A stretch of DNA of 64,000 nt from Pontiellaceae bacterium B12219 (lineage in GTDB: Bacteria; Verrucomicrobiota; Kiritimatiellia; Kiritimatiellales; Pontiellaceae), in NCBI GenBank assembly GCA_029432795.1, contig JARNMJ010000005.1, forward strand, positions 62,001 through 126,000. The letters are read 5' to 3'. Below the pieces are notes generated by a model. It had not been told where the DNA came from. It worked only from the letters and a program-made list of their open reading frames with translations, and ran no database searches. Position numbers and translations under genes: made by a program. Below are positions 6,129 to 51,900 of the stretch, piece after piece (the first letter of the stretch is position 1; every line of letters starts with the position of its first letter).

Positions 6129-8099
6129 ATGCGACGAATTGCAGTCATAGCCGTGTCATTGCTATTGGGAGGCCTGCGTCTGGCCTTGGCCGACCTGGGG
6201 CCGACCCAGTTGGAAAAACTGTCCCTGCCTGAACTGGAACAGCGGCTGGCCGATACTGATGCCGAACTCGAACAGCTCGCCAGCTACACCCTGCGCGGGG
6301 GCACCGGCTCGCTGGGCTATCGATCCAAGACACATAACAACCCCAGCGCACGGGAGTGGGTTGAGATCGAATTCGGCGAAGAGGTTGCCGTCGATCAGGT
6401 CATTTTGGTGCCGGCCCTGTGGCGCGCCGCCAATGACGGTCTTCTGGCCGAGGGATTTCCGACCGCTTTCCGTATTCTTGCGGGAACAGCCCAAACGACC
6501 AATGTGGTGGCCTCTTTTTCCGAAGAAGACAACGTATTGCCACGCATCGCCCCCCTGGCAGTATCCTTTCCCCCTGTCAAGGCATCCTGGGCAGGAATCG
6601 AAACCTCCACCCTCTCGCCCATGATTCGCGGTGACCTGCATATGCTTCAGCTATCCGAAATTATGGTATTCAGCGGACAGGAAAATGTGGCTCTGAATAA
6701 ACCCATCAAAGCTTCCAGCTTTGATAAAGGAACCGGAAAAAATCAGTTTCTCACCGACGGATTCACCCCCTACCTGATGGATGCCGCCGAAGGGCTCTAC
6801 AGCGCAACTAAACTGATCCGAGTCAACCGGGAGCAACCAGCACCCCACCTTCAGATCGACCTGCAAACCCCCAGCCCGGTCAACCAGATCAACCTGCACA
6901 CGGCCGATGTGGCCCTCTCCATCCCGATGCAACGCTTAAACACGTGGGCTGTGCCCCGCCATGTTCGCGCCACTGGTGCCAACCGCCCCGATTTTTCGGA
7001 TGCAACCACCCTGTGTGAATTCAAACAGGAATCGCTCTACGACAACGGCCCCATCATCATGCGCCGCTTCCCCGAAACCACCTGCCGCTATATCCGGATT
7101 GTAATCCTTGATCCCCGTCCAATCGTCTCTGCTCAAGACGCGGCAAATGAGATTGCTTTCACGGAAATTGAAGTATTCTCAGGCGGGCAGAATATTGCGC
7201 GTGGTGCGCCGGTCACCCACAGCAGCGGGCTGAGGCCATATGACCAGGCACTGCTGCGAATCACCGATGGGCTCAACTACTATGGGAAAATCCTGCCCAT
7301 ACGGGATTGGATGAACCAGCTGGCGCGCCGTCACGACCTTGAAATCGGACGTCCCCTCCTTGTTGCCGAGATGAATATCCGCTATGCGCGCCAAAAAACA
7401 AACCTGCATCGTTTGGCCTGGCTCGCAGCCATACTCGGGGTCGGCATCGCCTTCGCCATACTGATCGAACGCTTCATCCATCTGCGCCACCTCACCCTCA
7501 TCAAGGAGCGCTTTGCCGCCGACCTGCACGACGAACTGGGAGCCAACCTGCATACCATCGGGCTGTTGAGCGACCTCGCCGAAGAAACACAGGACAGTCC
7601 CGACGAACAAAACGAATATCTGCAGCGTATCCGAACCGTGACGGAACGATCCGGCAAGGTCGTCCGGAACGTGGCCGACCTGCATGAGTCCAGCGACCTG
7701 TTTACGGGACTCAGAACCGACATGCAGCGGGCGGCGGAACGCATCGTACGCCACCTCGAACACGACCTTGCCATCGAAGGTGAAGAATACCTTCCCCAGC
7801 TGAAACCGCAAAGATGCGTCAGCCTGTTCCTGTTCTACAAAGAATGCCTGATCAACATCTGCCGCCATTCCGGTGCCACCCGGCTCTGTACCCGCCTGAC
7901 CGCCTCCACCGGGAATGTCTGCCTGGAGATCGTCGATAATGGCCGGGGATTGCCGGATTCCATGCAAAACGGAATTCCTCCATCACTCAAACGCCGGGCA
8001 AAACTGCTCCGGGCAAAACTGACTGTCGAAAGTCCCGCTGAAGGGGGAACACGCATCACCTTAACGCTCAAATCCCGAAAATTAGGATTTATCAAATGA
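6129..8099 (+). CDS. Sensor histidine kinase with periplasmic discoidin-like sensor (pair 1)
   Basis: This 656-residue kinase has a signal peptide (1-21), a short Leu/Glu-rich coiled segment (about 27-50) and a large periplasmic region of discoidin-like folds (about 55-400, with ENVALNKPIKASS and QNIARGAPVTHSS type strands). One membrane helix lies at about 426-448. A HisKA_3-type dimerisation helix carries the phospho-acceptor His467 in DLHDELGANLHTIG, and a HATPase domain carries the DNGRGLP box. Discoidin folds bind glycans in known proteins, so sensing of an oligosaccharide is inferred. The stop overlaps the start of the response regulator (ATGA), consistent with translational coupling. 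The ATP-binding domain lacks the usual second Gly-rich box. A paralogue lies at 26069. Confidence 0.9.
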   Translation: MRRIAVIAVSLLLGGLRLALADLGPTQLEKLSLPELEQRLADTDAELEQLASYTLRGGTGSLGYRSKTHNNPSAREWVEIEFGEEVAVDQVILVPALWRAANDGLLAEGFPTAFRILAGTAQTTNVVASFSEEDNVLPRIAPLAVSFPPVKASWAGIETSTLSPMIRGDLHMLQLSEIMVFSGQENVALNKPIKASSFDKGTGKNQFLTDGFTPYLMDAAEGLYSATKLIRVNREQPAPHLQIDLQTPSPVNQINLHTADVALSIPMQRLNTWAVPRHVRATGANRPDFSDATTLCEFKQESLYDNGPIIMRRFPETTCRYIRIVILDPRPIVSAQDAANEIAFTEIEVFSGGQNIARGAPVTHSSGLRPYDQALLRITDGLNYYGKILPIRDWMNQLARRHDLEIGRPLLVAEMNIRYARQKTNLHRLAWLAAILGVGIAFAILIERFIHLRHLTLIKERFAADLHDELGANLHTIGLLSDLAEETQDSPDEQNEYLQRIRTVTERSGKVVRNVADLHESSDLFTGLRTDMQRAAERIVRHLEHDLAIEGEEYLPQLKPQRCVSLFLFYKECLINICRHSGATRLCTRLTASTGNVCLEIVDNGRGLPDSMQNGIPPSLKRRAKLLRAKLTVESPAEGGTRITLTLKSRKLGFIK

Positions 8100-8749
8100 A
8101 TATCAACGTCATGCTGGTGGAAGACAGCCCGGAATACCGGGACGTCATAGAAATAGCCATAAATAAAGAAACGAATATTATGCTATCAGGAACGTTCGGT
8201 GCAGCGGAAGTGGCGTTGCGGAGCCTGCTGGACCCTATGCAAAGCACAAAGCCGGATATTATTCTGCTCGATCTGAACCTACCCGGCATGTCAGGGCTTG
8301 ATGCCATTCCCTGGATTGGAAAATACGCCCCTGCCGCCAGAATCATCATCCTTACGCAGTCGAACCGGGAAGCCGACGTCTTGCATGCGATCTCTCAAGG
8401 TGCTTCCGGTTATCTGCTGAAATCCTCCTCCGTAAAGCAGATCAAGGAAGGCATCCGCAGCGTCATGGACGGCAACGCCCTGCTCGACGGCCGCGTGGCC
8501 CGGTATATCACCGATGCAATAAAAGCAAAGACTGCCATGGTTCAACTCGAAAAACCGCTCTCTGAACGTGAAATGGAAATCCTCACCCTGCTTGGAGATG
8601 GACTGCTTAAAAAGGAAATCGCCGACCGGCTGGGCATCGGTGTCGGCACCGTCAAAACCCACATCCGCCACATCTACGAAAAGCTCCAGGTCGAAAACGC
8701 CCCCGCTGCCATCTCCAAGGCTTACAAGAACGGTATCCTCCCGTTCTAG
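8096..8749 (+). CDS. NarL/LuxR-family response regulator (pair 1)
   Basis: This 217-residue regulator has an N-terminal receiver domain with the acidic pair E9/D10, phospho-acceptor Asp59 in ILLDLNLPGMSG, and K109 in YLLKSS. A C-terminal LuxR-type helix-turn-helix (about 148-217) is marked by LSEREMEILTLLGDGL and IGVGTVKTHIRHIYEKL. It overlaps the kinase gene by four bases and should receive phosphate from it. It ends convergently with the GH117-like gene at the end of run B, only 36 bp away. Run B is a plausible target; this is inference from position. Confidence 0.92.
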   Translation: MNINVMLVEDSPEYRDVIEIAINKETNIMLSGTFGAAEVALRSLLDPMQSTKPDIILLDLNLPGMSGLDAIPWIGKYAPAARIIILTQSNREADVLHAISQGASGYLLKSSSVKQIKEGIRSVMDGNALLDGRVARYITDAIKAKTAMVQLEKPLSEREMEILTLLGDGLLKKEIADRLGIGVGTVKTHIRHIYEKLQVENAPAAISKAYKNGILPF

Positions 8750-25794: not shown

Positions 25795-26068
25795 TCCGGG
25801 CACTCCTTCAACTTCATTCTTCGCTAACGACCCGTCTAAATTATGAAAATCCTGAATCAGGCCTTTCCTTTAAATTTAAAGTACAGTGAATCCGATTTGC
25901 GCGGTGCACGGCAACACGGCGAAACAGAATACCACACGATGAAATTCTGTCATGTGACGCATTCGCGCCACACGGCAAAATCTCAGAGAATTGCTCGCAC
26001 CGACCTCCATCAGGAAACGAAACCGAAATAAGTTGCACATCGGGACGCGACCGCCTAAACAAAACACC
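25795..26068. promoter_or_regulatory. Divergent promoter region, run B / kinase 2
   Basis: This is a 274-bp gap. It contains the TGTG palindrome (25953), an AT-rich palindrome TTTAAATTTAAA near 25869, and the CCTGAATCAGG dyad near 25851. The last two lie nearest the lyase-like gene and could be part of its promoter. No exact -35/-10 pair is claimed. Confidence 0.55.
25953..25972. promoter_or_regulatory. Candidate operator, TGTGACG palindrome copy 2
   Basis: The sequence is TGTGACGCATTCGCGCCACA, with arms TGTGRCGC and GCGYCACA around four bases. It lies in the divergent region between run B (start 25794) and kinase 2 (start 26069), 97 bp upstream of the kinase and 158 bp upstream of the lyase-like gene. 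Confidence 0.7.
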
Positions 26069-28120
26069 ATGCGTCCTCTTGCTATAAACATTGCAGTTTG
26101 TCTGTTGGCCCCCCTCTGCCTCGCCGGTGCCCGATCTCCATCCTCAGGCGGGGAATCAGAGAAAGCTCCCTCGCTGTCGCAACTCGAAGAGCGGCTGTCC
26201 GCGCTCGATGCTGAGCTCGGGCGGCTCGCCCGGTTTACGACCCGCCGCGGAGCCGGAAGTATTGGATGGAGCTCCCGACAATGGAAAACGCCCGATCATC
26301 CCGAATGGGCGGAGATTCAACTCCCTCGGAACGCAACCATTGATGAGATTGTTCTGGTTCCCGTCCTTTGGGATTACGCGGACAAAGGCCCTCAGGCCTC
26401 CGGCTTTCCCGTGGCGTTTGAAATACGTGCAGGAATGAAAGGCGACTCGACCGGAAACGTGATTGCCCGATTCGGTCCCGAAGACCGCCTCCTGCCGCGC
26501 GTGGCACCGCTGGTGATCCCCCTTCCGCCGACGAGCTTATCATGGGTACGGATTCAATCAACGCAGATGTCAACAACCGGCCTGATTGAACAATACACCT
26601 TCGGCTTTTCTGAAATCATGCTGTTCAGCGGCGGACACAATGTTGCAAGGCACCAGCCTGTCCGCGCTTCATCCGAGCCCCTGAACTGGGGCGGTGAGGC
26701 CATCTCGCCCAAAGCACTTACCGACGGATCCACCCCCTTTCTGATGGATTCGTCTCAGGGCAAAAAATCCCGCACCTACCTGGGCCGCTTCTCTTCGGAC
26801 ACACCGTTTTCATTCATCATCGATCTCGAAGAAAGCTACCCCGTGGACGAAATCCGCTACCACAGCGCCGCCGATGTCAGGCAGCACATCCCGCTCCCCA
26901 AAGAGGTTGACTATGGACTTCCCAGACACCTTATCGTGGAAGGTGCCAACCGGGCCGATTTTTCCGATGCCATTCCCTTACTGAACTATCAACTCCATAC
27001 AATTTATGACGCCGGGCCAATCCTGGTACGCAGTGTCCCCGGAACCCGTTGCCGCTATATCCGCCTCTCCATACCCGATCCCTACACGGTTCCCGCCAAC
27101 ATTAATGGACGGCGGTATGTTAATCTGTCGGAACTGGAAATCATTTCCAACGATCGGAATGTCGCCTTGGGAAAAACGGTTGTTTTCCCAAAAACAAATA
27201 TCCAGCACCTATCCAAAACATCCATTACGGACGGGAGCAATAATTTTGGAACGCTCCTGCCCATCCGGAACTGGATGGAGCAGCTGGCCCGCCGCCACGA
27301 TCTGGAACGGGAGCGCCCGCTCCTCGTTGCAGAACTCAACACCCGCTACGCCCGCCAGCAACGAAATCTTTTACTCATGTACTGGAGCGCCGGCATCCTG
27401 GCCGCTTCCACCGTTCTGACCATCCTCATCGGCCGCATCCTCCGCATGCGGCATGTGGTTGAAATTAAACAACGTTTTGCCGCCGATCTGCACGATGAAC
27501 TCGGAGCCAACCTCCACTCCATCGGACTGATCAGCGATGTGGCACAAAATGCCGACTCCAGCGAGCAGTGGCAGATGCTCAGCCGGCGGATTCGGGAACT
27601 GACCGAGCGCTCCGGAACTGCCGTGCGACACTGCACCAATCTACTTGAAGCCGACGACCTATATATCGGCCTGACCTCGGATATGCAACGGGCTGCCCAC
27701 CGCATCACAACCAATCTGGAGCACGATTTTGTCATCGAGGGCAAACCGTTTCTCGACCGGCTTCAGCCGCGTACCCGTATTGATCTCTTCCTGTTTTATA
27801 AAGAAGCTTTGGTCAACATCTGCCGGCACTCCGGCGCCTCCAAAATAAGCACCCGTCTGATCGGCGGATCCAAGGAAACGATTCTAACCGTCTGTGACAA
27901 CGGGAAAGGCCTTCAGGGTCACGTACCGACCTCACTCAAGCGCCGTGCCCGTCTGCTTCGAGCCAAACTCATCGTTGAATCCCCTGAAACGGGAGGAACG
28001 GTAATTACTCTAAAGCTGCGCCCCCGGCGGGGACTGCGCTTCAGTCAAAAGTCAAAAAGTCCAACATCAAAAATCTCCAATACGAATCAAGCGACCGGCC
28101 AAAATACATTTGACCTTTGA
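26069..28120 (+). CDS. Sensor histidine kinase with periplasmic discoidin-like sensor (pair 2)
   Basis: This is a 683-residue kinase. The ATG at 26069 starts the signal peptide (MRPLAINIAVCLLAPLCLAGA); the frame is open upstream but lacks a leader. The layout matches kinase 1: a Leu/Glu coiled segment, discoidin-like folds (about 60-405, with HNVARHQPVRASS), a membrane helix (about 433-455), phospho-acceptor His475 in DLHDELGANLHSIG, and the ATP box DNGKGLQG. It again lacks a recognisable second Gly-rich box. The last 25 residues, rich in Ser/Lys/Asn/Thr, are encoded by degenerate heptameric repeats and have no match in kinase 1. It is divergent from run B and 29 bp before its regulator. Confidence 0.88.
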   Translation: MRPLAINIAVCLLAPLCLAGARSPSSGGESEKAPSLSQLEERLSALDAELGRLARFTTRRGAGSIGWSSRQWKTPDHPEWAEIQLPRNATIDEIVLVPVLWDYADKGPQASGFPVAFEIRAGMKGDSTGNVIARFGPEDRLLPRVAPLVIPLPPTSLSWVRIQSTQMSTTGLIEQYTFGFSEIMLFSGGHNVARHQPVRASSEPLNWGGEAISPKALTDGSTPFLMDSSQGKKSRTYLGRFSSDTPFSFIIDLEESYPVDEIRYHSAADVRQHIPLPKEVDYGLPRHLIVEGANRADFSDAIPLLNYQLHTIYDAGPILVRSVPGTRCRYIRLSIPDPYTVPANINGRRYVNLSELEIISNDRNVALGKTVVFPKTNIQHLSKTSITDGSNNFGTLLPIRNWMEQLARRHDLERERPLLVAELNTRYARQQRNLLLMYWSAGILAASTVLTILIGRILRMRHVVEIKQRFAADLHDELGANLHSIGLISDVAQNADSSEQWQMLSRRIRELTERSGTAVRHCTNLLEADDLYIGLTSDMQRAAHRITTNLEHDFVIEGKPFLDRLQPRTRIDLFLFYKEALVNICRHSGASKISTRLIGGSKETILTVCDNGKGLQGHVPTSLKRRARLLRAKLIVESPETGGTVITLKLRPRRGLRFSQKSKSPTSKISNTNQATGQNTFDL

Positions 28121-28139
28121 CCTTCAGGCTTTCGACCAA
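28042..28139. repeat. Degenerate heptameric repeat at the kinase 2 / regulator 2 junction
   Basis: Period-7 units run CAGTCAA, AAGTCAA, AAAGTCC, AACATCA, AAAATCT, CCAATAC, GAATCAA. A second set near the stop codon runs GACCTTT, GACCTTC, AGGCTTT, CGACCAA. The run extends across the kinase stop codon at 28118-28120. Confidence 0.75.
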
Positions 28140-28149
28140 AAGGAATTCT

Positions 28150-28815
28150 ATGAAAAATAAAATCAACATTATGCTGATCGAAGACCACCCCGAATATCGC
28201 GAAAGCATTGAGCTCGTTTTAAGCACAACAGAGGATCTCCTACTTGCCCGCCAGTTCGGTACGGCCGATCAGGCTCTCCACGTTCTGGAGCAGAAACCTC
28301 CGGTCGAGGTGCCGGACATCATACTGTTGGACCTTAACCTGCCGGGGCTGAGCGGCATTGATGCCCTGCCCCTGTTAAAAAAGCATTCCCCGCAGACTCC
28401 GATTATTGTCCTTACCCAGTCCGATCACGAAGCGGATGTACTCGCAGCCATCAGCGCCGGCGCCTCCGGTTATCTGCTGAAGGCCTCAACCGGCAGCGAA
28501 CTCATCGGCGGGATCCGAACCGTTTTGAATGGCGGTGCCCCGATCGATCCGAAGATGGCCCGCTACATGGTGGACTTCCTATCTGACAAACCACAGCACA
28601 CCGAAAAGGACTGCACGCTTTCAGAACGGGAACTCAGCGTTCTGACCCTGCAGGGCGAAGGACTCGTTAAAAAGGAGATCGCAGAGCGACTCGATATCAG
28701 CACCCACACCGTGGACAACTATATGCGGCGAATCTATGAAAAACTTCAAGTACCCAATGCCCCCGCCGCCATCGCCAAAGCGTTCAGAAGCGGACTCTTT
28801 CCCCGCAATAGTTGA
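28150..28815 (+). CDS. NarL/LuxR-family response regulator (pair 2)
   Basis: This is a 221-residue regulator. The ATG at 28150 follows AAGGA by six bases. The receiver domain has E11/D12, phospho-acceptor Asp61 in ILLDLNLPGLSG and YLLKAS. The LuxR helix-turn-helix has LSERELSVLTLQGEGL and ISTHTVDNYMRRIYEKL. It is paralogous to the regulator at 8096, but the recognition-helix region differs (STHTVDNYMRR versus GVGTVKTHIRH), so the two may bind different sites. It is convergent with the GH2 gene at 28855 (39-bp gap). Confidence 0.92.
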   Translation: MKNKINIMLIEDHPEYRESIELVLSTTEDLLLARQFGTADQALHVLEQKPPVEVPDIILLDLNLPGLSGIDALPLLKKHSPQTPIIVLTQSDHEADVLAAISAGASGYLLKASTGSELIGGIRTVLNGGAPIDPKMARYMVDFLSDKPQHTEKDCTLSERELSVLTLQGEGLVKKEIAERLDISTHTVDNYMRRIYEKLQVPNAPAAIAKAFRSGLFPRNS

Positions 28816-28854
28816 CGGCGGTTCTATGTGCTGTGATCGGCCGGAGTTCTCCGC

Positions 28855-32019
<3,165 letters not shown>

Positions 32020-48973: not shown

Positions 48974-51900
48974 CTATCGCACGTTGATTTCGTCGATATA
49001 CATACAACCGTTTTCCACGGTGGTGAGTCGGATGGTATTTGCCCCGCGCCCCAGCGAAACAGGCACGGTAACCGTTTTCCAATCGGAGCCCCAATTTCCA
49101 GTGCTTGGAAGCATCAGCGCTTCGTTCACGATTTTTCCATTAACCGTCAGCATGACCGAACGCCCCGGCCGACCTTTGGTTTTACCGCTGTAACGGATGA
49201 CCAAATCAGCCGTCCCGGCATCACCATCATTTTCCTGATACCATTCAACATAGGCCCCTTTGTTCTGGCCGAAATCCAGAAAACCTTTCCCGTTGAAACC
49301 GGACCCTTTGCTGGAAACCTTTGCGCCTTTAAACGCGGCATCCTCAGCCTGATCGCCCCCGGCATTCAAGGCCTTCGGCTCTTCGTTCCAGACAAAGCCC
49401 TCATCGGATGCAAAGCGTTCTTCCAAGGTTTGGATCGGTTTACCATCGGCCACAATCAATGCTTTAACCGTGGTGCCCAGCGGAACGGAGAAAGCGTCCG
49501 AATACGGCTTGGACTTTATCGTCGGAACGGAGCCATCTGTCGTATAGAAAACTTGAATTCCAAGGGTTGGAACATTTCCTCGCAAAGAAAGCTGCTGAAC
49601 ATCGATGCTCACCTTATTCGAAGTGATCAGCTTCTTTTCACCCAGAATACAACTGGCCAATAAAGCAATGTCGCCCGCTTCACCGGTCGATTCAATATAG
49701 GCGCGCGTCAGTCCATAGAAGGCAATGCGATTATCTACACCGAAATGCTTCTCCACATCGATCGGACTGCCGTTATCCAATGCGCGGATTTTTCCCGGAC
49801 CGATCACATGAAAATACGTGCGGTTTTCACCATAGGGATAAAATTCCCCGGTATCATCCGTCGTGGTCACACGCACCTGCACGATATCCTTGCCCGCAGG
49901 AGCCAGCGGTTCGCCATCGATGGAAAGTGCAATACGCGCCGGGGCACCGGCGGTACGGACCTCTTCCTCCACAATCACCCGGCCGTCTTTAAATCCAACC
50001 GCCTTCAACGCGGCGGGTTTCCACGGCACCATCCACTGACACTGCATTTCATCCCATTTCGTTCCGGGCCGCTGCTTGCCGAGCGACGTTCCGTTGAAAA
50101 ACAGTTCAACCTCATCGCAATTGGAATAGACCTGCACCGGAATTTCTGTCCCCTCTTTCACCTTCGGGTGCGTCCAATGCGGCAGGATGTGAACCATCGG
50201 CTCATCGGTCCACTGGCTCTGATAGAGGTAATAGAGATCCTTTTCAAAATTGGCCATATCAATGGCGCCGCCCATGAACGATTTGAACGGCCAGCCGCCA
50301 TGCACATAGCTCGCTTCACCGATATAGTCGTAGCCCGTCCAGCGGAACGAACCTGCAAAGTTAGGAATATCACGAATCTGTTCAATGTTATGACGAGCCG
50401 AAGAACGGACGGTTGCATTGTCATAACTTGAATCAAATACCTGCTTGCGATTACCGCGTTCGGACTCCTTGATCCAATCGTGCGTAAACACCTCGACTTC
50501 TGTCAGGTCCGGTATATCAAACACATTCTGTTTCTTTCCGTCGCGGTACCAGGTTTTAGTACGGTAATAACCGCGAACCTGCCAGGTGTGTGTATTTTCT
50601 GTACCGATGAAAACCTTGTCCGTTTTCAGGCGGTCGAACCAGGTAACCGTTTCGCTGGCCCCGTTGGCCCCCAGCACGTCCATATATTCCGAACTGGAAT
50701 GTCCGGAGGTTACCGGACGCGTTGGATCAAGCTCATGACATAGAGCAACAATCTCTTTACCGACCTGGCCATGGGTTTCGTTGCCGACGCTGTAAATGAC
50801 CACTGACGGATGATTCCGGTCGCGCTTGATCCAGTCCGCCACATCGCGCTGCCACCATTCGTTGAAGTGGTATCGACCGTAATCATGCGCGGCCTTTTTT
50901 TTCCACCCATCAAAAATCTCATCCATCACCAGCATACCGACTTCATCGCAAATATCGTAAAAGGTCGGTGTCTGCGGATTGTGCGAGGTGCGGATGGCAT
51001 TGCAGCCCATCGCCTTCAGCTGCTCGATGCGGAAGCGCAGAATTTTATCCGGAACCGCCGCGCCGAGCGCACCGGCATCCTGGTGATTGCAGACGCCCTG
51101 CAGTTTGACATTTTTTCCATTCAGCCACATGCCGGTTTCGGGTTTCCATTCCACATCGCGAATCCCGAAACGAGTCGTCGTTACCGTATCGAGGGTGGTT
51201 CCCCTGATTTTAAGCTTTGTAACCGCGGTATATAAATTCGGGGAATCCAGATCCCAAAGCTGAGGAGAGGAAACCTGAAAGCTGAAACCTGAAACCTGAA
51301 ATTCACCGGCCGATATCATGACCGGCTTATGCATTCGGTCCACTTCTTTACCGTTCGGATCGATGATCGAAATTTCAATCTGTACGGATTGCGCCCGATC
51401 CGTTGTGTTCCGGACTTCAGCATCGATCTCGATTTCGTTCCCATCCGTACGTACAAAAACTCCATCGGTTGGAACATAAACCTTATCTTTCACGTCAATC
51501 CAGGTGTGCGCATAGATGCCGCTGCCGGTGTACCACCGCGCCGACGGCTGTTTTTCGTTATCCACACGCACAGCAAACGTAATGCTTTCCGAGGTCTGGA
51601 CGATGTCGCTGATGTCGTAGGCAAACGAACTCCAGCCGTACGGGCGCGTGCCCAGCTTCTTTCCGTTCGCCCAGACCGTGCTGTTCATGTAGACACCGTC
51701 GAATGCAACTTCCACATGCTTTCCTTTCCAATCATTGGAAACCGGAACCGTTTTACGGTACCACCCGATCCCGGCGGGCAGATAACCGGCCGTGCCTCCC
51801 ATGGGATTGTCTTTGGCATATTCGCCCTCGATGCTCCAGTCGTGCGGAACGTCCAGCACGCGCCAGGCTGCATCGTCAAAATTCACCTGTTCGGCTCCTG

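Follow-up and report, generated by a model that had tools for sequence, protein, structure and literature searches.

Why should two paralogous gene pairs in the same stretch of a genome be joined in such different ways? The question is raised by a 64,000-nucleotide stretch of DNA from Pontiellaceae bacterium B12219, referred to here as the window. Its two pairs, at 6129-8749 and 26069-28815, are members of a large family of sensor kinases with LuxR-type regulators and are found here amid sulfatase and glycosidase genes. In pair 1, the regulator ATG at 8096 lies within the kinase gene, whose stop ends at 8099, so that the ATGA overlap described in a sequence-only reading of this DNA is confirmed. 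In pair 2, the kinase stop TGA at 28118-28120 and the regulator ATG at 28150 leave a 29-bp gap, and the kinase carries a 25-residue tail in which Ser, Lys, Asn, and Thr account for 15 of the 25 residues. The same reading had derived the tail from period-7 repeats, had these repeats running past the stop into the gap, and had explained tail and gap together by a single insertion at the junction. The relevant features are as follows:

6129-8099, plus strand: kinase 1, the paralogue used for comparison, with no element at its junction
8096-8749, plus strand: regulator 1, overlapping kinase 1 by ATGA
26069-28120, plus strand: kinase 2, a sensor histidine kinase with HisKA_3 and, at the N terminus, a discoidin-like (F5/8 type C-like) part; its final 25 codons are insert-derived
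28043-28117, plus strand: the codons of the 25-residue tail of kinase 2, translated as SQKSKSPTSKISNTNQATGQNTFDL
28044-28071, plus strand: 5' arm of the insert, degenerate GTCAAAA heptads
28072-28108, no strand: middle (loop) of the insert, nonperiodic and containing no gene
28109-28136, minus strand: 3' arm, TTTGACC heptads, the reverse complement of the 5' arm and the source of the kinase 2 TGA stop
28140-28145, plus strand: AAGGAA, a Shine-Dalgarno-like sequence in the 3' end of the insert
28150-28815, plus strand: regulator 2, a response regulator with a receiver and a LuxR-type DNA-binding domain

The likely start codon of kinase 2 is the ATG at 26069, the mechanical start being a TTG at 25991, and its Pfam scores (HisKA_3, 22.6 bits; F5_F8_type_C, 20.3 bits) are both below the curated cut-offs. 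The insert at its 3' end spans about 100 bases and consists of arms of seven-base repeats that face each other. Lag-7 identity within 28042-28139 is 0.49 against a window mean of 0.246 (standard deviation, 0.046), which ranks this segment first among 9,129 98-bp segments of the 64 kb and is reached by none of 5,000 dinucleotide shuffles. Because the first repeats read GTCAAAA and the last read TTTGACC, the two ends of the array face each other: with one arm inverted, 28044-28071 and 28109-28136 agree at 20 of 28 positions, a score at least equalled in 11 of 2,000 shuffles. Each arm of this copy holds only 2.1 to 2.3 perfect units. As an exact doublet, GTCAAANGTCAAA was found at two places in the 4.75-Mb genome, one in each arm; since nothing else matched, the idea that the exact GTCAAA unit forms a family across this genome was rejected. 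The Ser/Lys/Asn/Thr-rich composition of the tail was confirmed, and its first half and last heptads are periodic, but its middle is not. The continuation of the repeats past the stop and the 29-bp gap were borne out. No target-site duplication or exact boundary could be fixed for the window element, no S23/IVP four-helix-bundle open reading frame (ORF) appears in this copy in the ORF list, and no Rfam family matches at E<=1 within 26000-30000, which places the insert outside any rRNA gene.

A plain tandem-repeat expansion, as the earlier description implied, does not fit these repeats, which form the two inverted arms of a widespread kind of element. Expansion by slippage would start from a heptamer that was present by chance where the kinase gene ends and was multiplied in replication, through the stop codon. 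Period 7 is real and local here, and long, near-perfect, one-directional arrays elsewhere in the genome (about ten copies at C196:75500) indicate that such units can expand, but slippage does not produce reverse-complement halves of the kind seen in the window insert.

We compared this junction with those of related gene pairs, using a set of 42 kinase-regulator junctions; 2 come from the window and 40 from a list of 42 further places with an identity of at least 42%. The genes overlap at 23 of these junctions, 13 have gaps of 1 to 16 nt, and 6 have gaps of more than 20 nt. All six long gaps contain palindromic repeat inserts, whose repeat type was judged by eye as heptads in the window, L062, L065, and L078 and as period-9-like repeats in L064 and L079. 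A single insertion at the junction does account for both the tail and the gap, as had been proposed. At the L070 junction, a heptad-like tail is present on one side and the overlap is retained. The overlap is also missing from many pairs of the family that have no repeats, which bears on the putative uncoupling of kinase 2 from its regulator in the sequence-only reading. The window kinase groups with L062 from genome G016 as its sister in the kinase tree (support, 100/100; the kinases are 75% identical), and for each of L065, L070, and L078 the sister gene has no heptad insert. The sisters of the insert-bearing L078 and L065, namely L089 and L066, overlap their regulators and have no such insert. 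The tree thus points to at least four separate gains of inserts among the kinase junctions. An orthologue with the same tail but without period 7 was sought and not found; the 75% identical orthologue has a different tail and heptad arms of its own.

The inserts of the window, L078, and L065 align with one another and begin in an identical reading frame (SQKSK) at the same position in the kinase gene. The window and L078 copies also have a common end, CGACCAAAAGGAAT, which includes the AAGGAA, so that slippage would have to account for homologous inserts with the same 3' end in other kinase lineages. The inverted match between arms is strong in L078 (reached by 0 of 2,000 shuffles) and is not significant in L065 (230 of 2,000). 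The tail could instead be an old trait of part of the kinase family, spread by recombination or gene conversion between paralogous pairs with no mobile element involved. In favor of this, all three SQKSK-type copies found occupy the same place at the 3' end of their kinase gene, and several genomes list at least 10 sensor kinase and LuxR-type regulator pairs each; however, the kinase junctions were chosen on purpose, and the shared location of these copies is therefore partly a matter of ascertainment. The insert is absent from the nearest sisters, L089 and L066, the three kinases occupy separate well-supported branches of the tree, and two-armed inserts of the same kind are found in unrelated places (an aconitase gene and the guaA-carB junction, described below). 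An inherited or gene-converted tail is, in our judgment, unlikely.

The orthologous junction of G016 (L062) has a gap of 450 bp, in which heptad arms of the GTCGAGT type flank a gene of the PF05635 family (23S_rRNA_IVP), so that slippage would also have to accommodate a gene-bearing form at the same place. The encoded protein scores 55.9 bits against a PF05635 cut-off of 33.8 and 60.5 bits with TIGR02436 ("four helix bundle protein"), and its sole match of solved structure is PDB 2gsc; L180 gave a bAvd match. Of 117 genomes searched, a set that takes in the window's own, 103 have genes of this family; the window's genome has eight. One of its copies (L104) has GTCGAAG heptads. In a relative of the same order, one PF05635 protein (L110) is identical over all 124 residues to the protein of a Pontiellaceae record (L179), in keeping with a likely origin of the window in Kiritimatiellales. 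At another locus (L105 1437-1845; G000:C111:94114), a PF05635 gene and AATTACG arms are situated inside an apparent type I restriction specificity gene.

The association of period-7 arms with PF05635 genes was examined in loci from relatives and in 80 loci that came from named genomes and covered many phyla, archaea included, these being the best 80 of at least 590 confirmed stretches. In the first set of relatives, 35 of 37 loci could be read (L120 and L123 were not located by motif search), and the best lag-7 identity averaged 0.665 in one flank and 0.682 in the other versus 0.43 at a distance of about 600 bp, with no comparable rise at lags 5, 6, and 8 to 11. The set from other phyla, in which 79 of the 80 loci were used (L198 was dropped) and a 5' flank was available for 77, gave 0.69 and 0.69 versus 0.43 to 0.44, and likewise at the multiple 14; the enrichment of the flanks is seen at lags 7 and 14 and not at 5, 6, or 8 to 13. 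For the pooled set, comprising 158 of 163 gene copies with control loci for 106, an arm was defined by a lag-7 identity of at least 0.57. Both arms were present at 116 of the 158 PF05635 genes versus none of the 106 control loci, and at least one arm was present at 138 of 158 versus 13 of 106; the other 20 of 158 copies had no arm by this threshold.

The sequence of the heptad differs from copy to copy, whereas the two arms of one copy agree. Compared with the reverse complement of the 3' unit of the same copy, the 5' unit matches at 5.66 of 7 positions on average (at least 6 matches in 72 of 116), versus 3.63 of 7 between the arm units of different copies (at least 6 in 3.2%). In the first 26 copies, drawn from the 35, none of 2,000 permutations did as well for the inversion of arms within a copy. 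Heptad similarity also rises with protein identity (Mantel 0.232; 0 of 2,000) and continues to do so when only pairs with unrelated neighbors are considered (Mantel r, 0.197; 0 of 2,000); the 49 such pairs with a protein identity of at least 60% average 5.43 heptad matches. The same gene with the same arms at unrelated sites is the trace expected of a moving unit.

We rejected an RNA-level structure as the constraint on the arms for want of support: G.U and A.C mismatches are balanced, and the window copy folds no better than its shuffles on both strands. Between the arms of the gene-bearing class, no bias of G.U over A.C was seen (50 to 46; 55 to 65), and the z scores for folding of the window copy are 0.13 on the sense strand and -1.53 on the antisense strand. 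Two other gene-less copies do fold better than their shuffles (z, -5.6 and -7.1). That the heptads are a conserved binding site or an RNA attenuator for regulator expression is very improbable, even though the insert sits between kinase 2 and regulator 2 and direct repeats of seven bases can serve elsewhere as activator sites (as described in accessible sections of PMC5930380), given that the insert is not conserved, most of the 42 junctions being repeat-free, and that neither sense-strand folding, nor mismatch bias, nor any Rfam match lends it support.

Filled and empty sites of the same kind of element can be compared within one genus at the guaA-carB junction (L359-L382), where 20 of 26 carB loci were readable and the types of occupant were judged by eye. 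Six of the 20 sites are empty (6 to 16 bp), five are heptad armed (446 to 473 bp), five have arms of the CGCAAAG/CTTTGCG type (292 to 474 bp), two hold short gene-less palindromes (121 and 125 bp), and two hold other occupants. The PF05635 motif is present in four of the five heptad-armed sites, and the occupant in G007 and G009 contains, by coordinates, a PDDEXK_3 gene. This junction has the appearance of a hotspot that is either empty or filled by heptad/PF05635 elements, period-9-like/PDDEXK_3 elements, gene-less palindromes, or other genes. Upstream of leuS, heptad arms with the PF05635 motif were found in 3 of 21 loci. When filled guaA-carB sites were set beside empty ones, no clear target-site duplication emerged. 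In filled leuS and carB sites, the outermost heptad looks like the sequence that precedes the ribosome-binding site in some empty sites (L329, L359, and L371). Seeding of the heptad by the target site was considered and set aside, as it concerns only these two loci (guaA-carB and leuS) and is not separable from selection on the ribosome-binding site.

Gene-less arrays of the same period are frequent in the window's genome. A scan of 863 kb, in contigs partly picked for carrying PF05635 genes, gave 28 arrays with a lag-7 identity of at least 0.68, a threshold that overlooks the degenerate window copy, versus none in three Markov simulations. At other lags, the same 863 kb gave 0 to 3 arrays at 5, 8, 10, and 11, 8 at 6, 11 at 9, and 12 at 13. 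By a crude ORF call, 13 of the 28 are inside ORFs, 8 cross ORF ends, and 7 are intergenic. No period-7 arrays occurred in 400 kb of three genomes that lack PF05635, versus 8 in 398 kb of four genomes that have it, these stretches coming from long contigs known from earlier matches rather than from a random draw. Several gene-less copies are read as protein. For example, a strongly palindromic heptad copy lies in frame in the aconitase gene of G036 (L019 1456-1530) and adds 24 residues, RQKSKVKSQKSGNLTSDLRPSTFD, and a two-armed copy at G000:C44:12051-12150 (L274) lies in frame in a likely signal peptide, after the first residues and ahead of the hydrophobic part. With two-armed inserts of the same type at unrelated loci and no arrays in the sampled DNA of the PF05635-free genomes, heptamer slippage at the kinase 2 junction is improbable. 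The window itself holds a second period-7 array:

51262-51307, minus strand: TTTCAGG heptads lying in frame within a gene for a GH2-type beta-galactosidase and translated as EFQVSGFSFQVSS

This array is present in six orthologues (its own gene and those of five relatives), at unchanged length compared with heptad-free homologues, and its dominant unit differs between genomes (TTTCAGG in the window and TTTCAAG in G001). Its units look as if they had been homogenized in place. Insertion as the sole cause of arrays within coding sequences was consequently not accepted for 51262-51307.

A second gene family was seen in a comparable setting. PDDEXK_3 genes (GxxExxY motif) are often situated between inverted period-9-like arms, e.g., ACCACGAAATACAC and GTGTATTTCGTGGT (L389-L418; for example, L397, L400, L412, and L418). 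Across the flanks of 30 PDDEXK_3 loci, the mean rise at lag 9 is weak (0.51 and 0.52 versus 0.47 in controls), and inverted period-9 arms are clear by eye at several loci. These genes and their arms are possibly a parallel class of element.

Taken together, the kinase 2 junction is probably a gene-less (nonautonomous or decayed) copy of a palindromic mobile element whose full form has a PF05635/TIGR02436 gene between heptad arms. The observations behind this reading are the anatomy of the insert, the gene-bearing form at the orthologous junction, gene-less homologues at two kinase junctions that have no counterpart in the sister genes, the association of period-7 inverted arms with the PF05635 family, and the filled and empty sites. 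From these we infer that the element moved as DNA, that the PF05635 protein may work in trans on these arms, and that a gene-bearing element would be the ancestor of the window copy. Counting against the reading are the missing gene, the degenerate arms, the modest inverted match (11 of 2,000 shuffles), and the ordinary RNA folding of the window copy, together with the armless 20 of 158 gene copies, the nonsignificant inverted match of L065, and the unchanged length of the beta-galactosidase array. The same holds for the failure to establish a target-site duplication or an exact boundary, and no transposition event was observed.

Under this reading of a gene-less element copy, the insertion would have taken place at the 3' end of the kinase 2 gene, and one arm would be translated as protein (SQKSK...) to form the tail. 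The facing arm would provide the in-frame TGA, and the outer end would provide AAGGAA, the ribosome-binding-like sequence ahead of regulator 2 that, to judge from the sequence, comes with the insert. With one arm open in the frame of the kinase, a second arm carrying TGA, and an end carrying AAGGAA, both kinase 2 and regulator 2 would remain translatable while the ATGA overlap is lost. This arrangement, at the end of a gene, may be why the insert was tolerated. As far as sequence can tell, the tail of kinase 2 is probably without function, and loss of the overlap may alter the ratio of kinase to regulator.

Part of this picture is familiar from the intervening sequences (IVS) of 23S rRNA genes. 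The accessible portion of PMC4990558 describes the 23S IVS of Coxiella as a selfish element: inverted repeats form its ends, and its S23 gene is preceded by tandem GACAGAT heptamers, the number of which differs between strains. The rRNA IVS with an S23/IVP gene, as in Coxiella and Leptospira, thus share both the protein family and the terminal inverted repeats with the gene-bearing elements found here. Inverted repeats able to pair are also found in the window copy (20 of 28 positions), but this copy is gene-less and lies in a protein operon, and the heptads vary between copies. No rRNA match to Rfam was found in 40 loci (the G016 kinase junction and 39 loci retrieved for a PF05635 copy), so that inserts in rRNA genes seem to be in the minority here. 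Compared with the period-7-armed PF05635 elements, the window copy has period 7 on both sides and the inverted unit and lacks the gene; since the gene is present at the orthologous junction, we class it only as a gene-less relative of these elements. IVP genes have also been noted in cas loci, e.g., between cmr3 and cmr2 (excerpts of PMC3936711), and in rRNA inserts of CPR bacteria (excerpts of PMC11270868). The available part of PMC10053308 relates the IVP family by structure and sequence to Avd, the accessory protein of diversity-generating retroelements (DGRs), but the arms of the heptad elements are not a template repeat as in DGR Avd systems. The 23S rRNA form is therefore already known, whereas we found no paper in open-licence PMC that joins period-7 inverted arms to PF05635 genes in general. 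For the TAACTGA repeats of Beggiatoaceae, the accessible text of PMC4679880 describes direct repeats of a fixed seven-base unit near genes or ORF ends with suspected mobility, and neither "four helix bundle" nor "S23" appears in that text. These repeats resemble the heptad elements in having seven-base units near genes and sometimes at ORF ends.

The STRR sequences of cyanobacteria, which are heptameric intergenic repeats, are similar to the heptad elements in their seven-base units near genes. Rickettsia palindromic elements are short palindromic inserts lying in frame inside protein genes, and by description the window insert is like them in being a short palindrome that is read in frame; heptad arms and a PF05635 gene are not known to be among their features. 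Small gene-less inverted-repeat copies beside a gene-bearing relative are typical of MITEs and of REP/RAYT elements. Unlike these, the heptad elements showed no transposase and have no fixed terminal sequence: only the period and the inversion are constant, and the unit varies with the protein subfamily.

A wider interpretation, whose chances we judge to be about even, is that a very large class of mobile DNA in bacteria and archaea, as yet without a name, has PF05635 as its only gene and is defined by the period of its ends and not by their sequence. Its members would have inverted heptad arms with an element-specific unit that is matched between the arms and co-inherited with the protein, and their gene-less offspring would give rise to tails, signal-peptide extensions, and internal segments of host proteins. 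The period-9/PDDEXK_3 class would run parallel to it, with some sites in common, and the rRNA IVS would be one special case.

PF05635 is known mainly from rare inserts in rRNA genes; in the samples analyzed here, its genes are usually found in protein-coding neighborhoods, between inverted heptad arms. Period 7 offers a simple handle for detecting such elements and their gene-less copies. The arms also raise the question of how distant arms keep one unit even though that unit differs between copies. For annotation, caution is warranted, as Ser/Lys/Asn/Thr-rich tails such as that of kinase 2 may derive from elements and not from function, and these elements can be seen as an evolutionary source of low-complexity protein tails.
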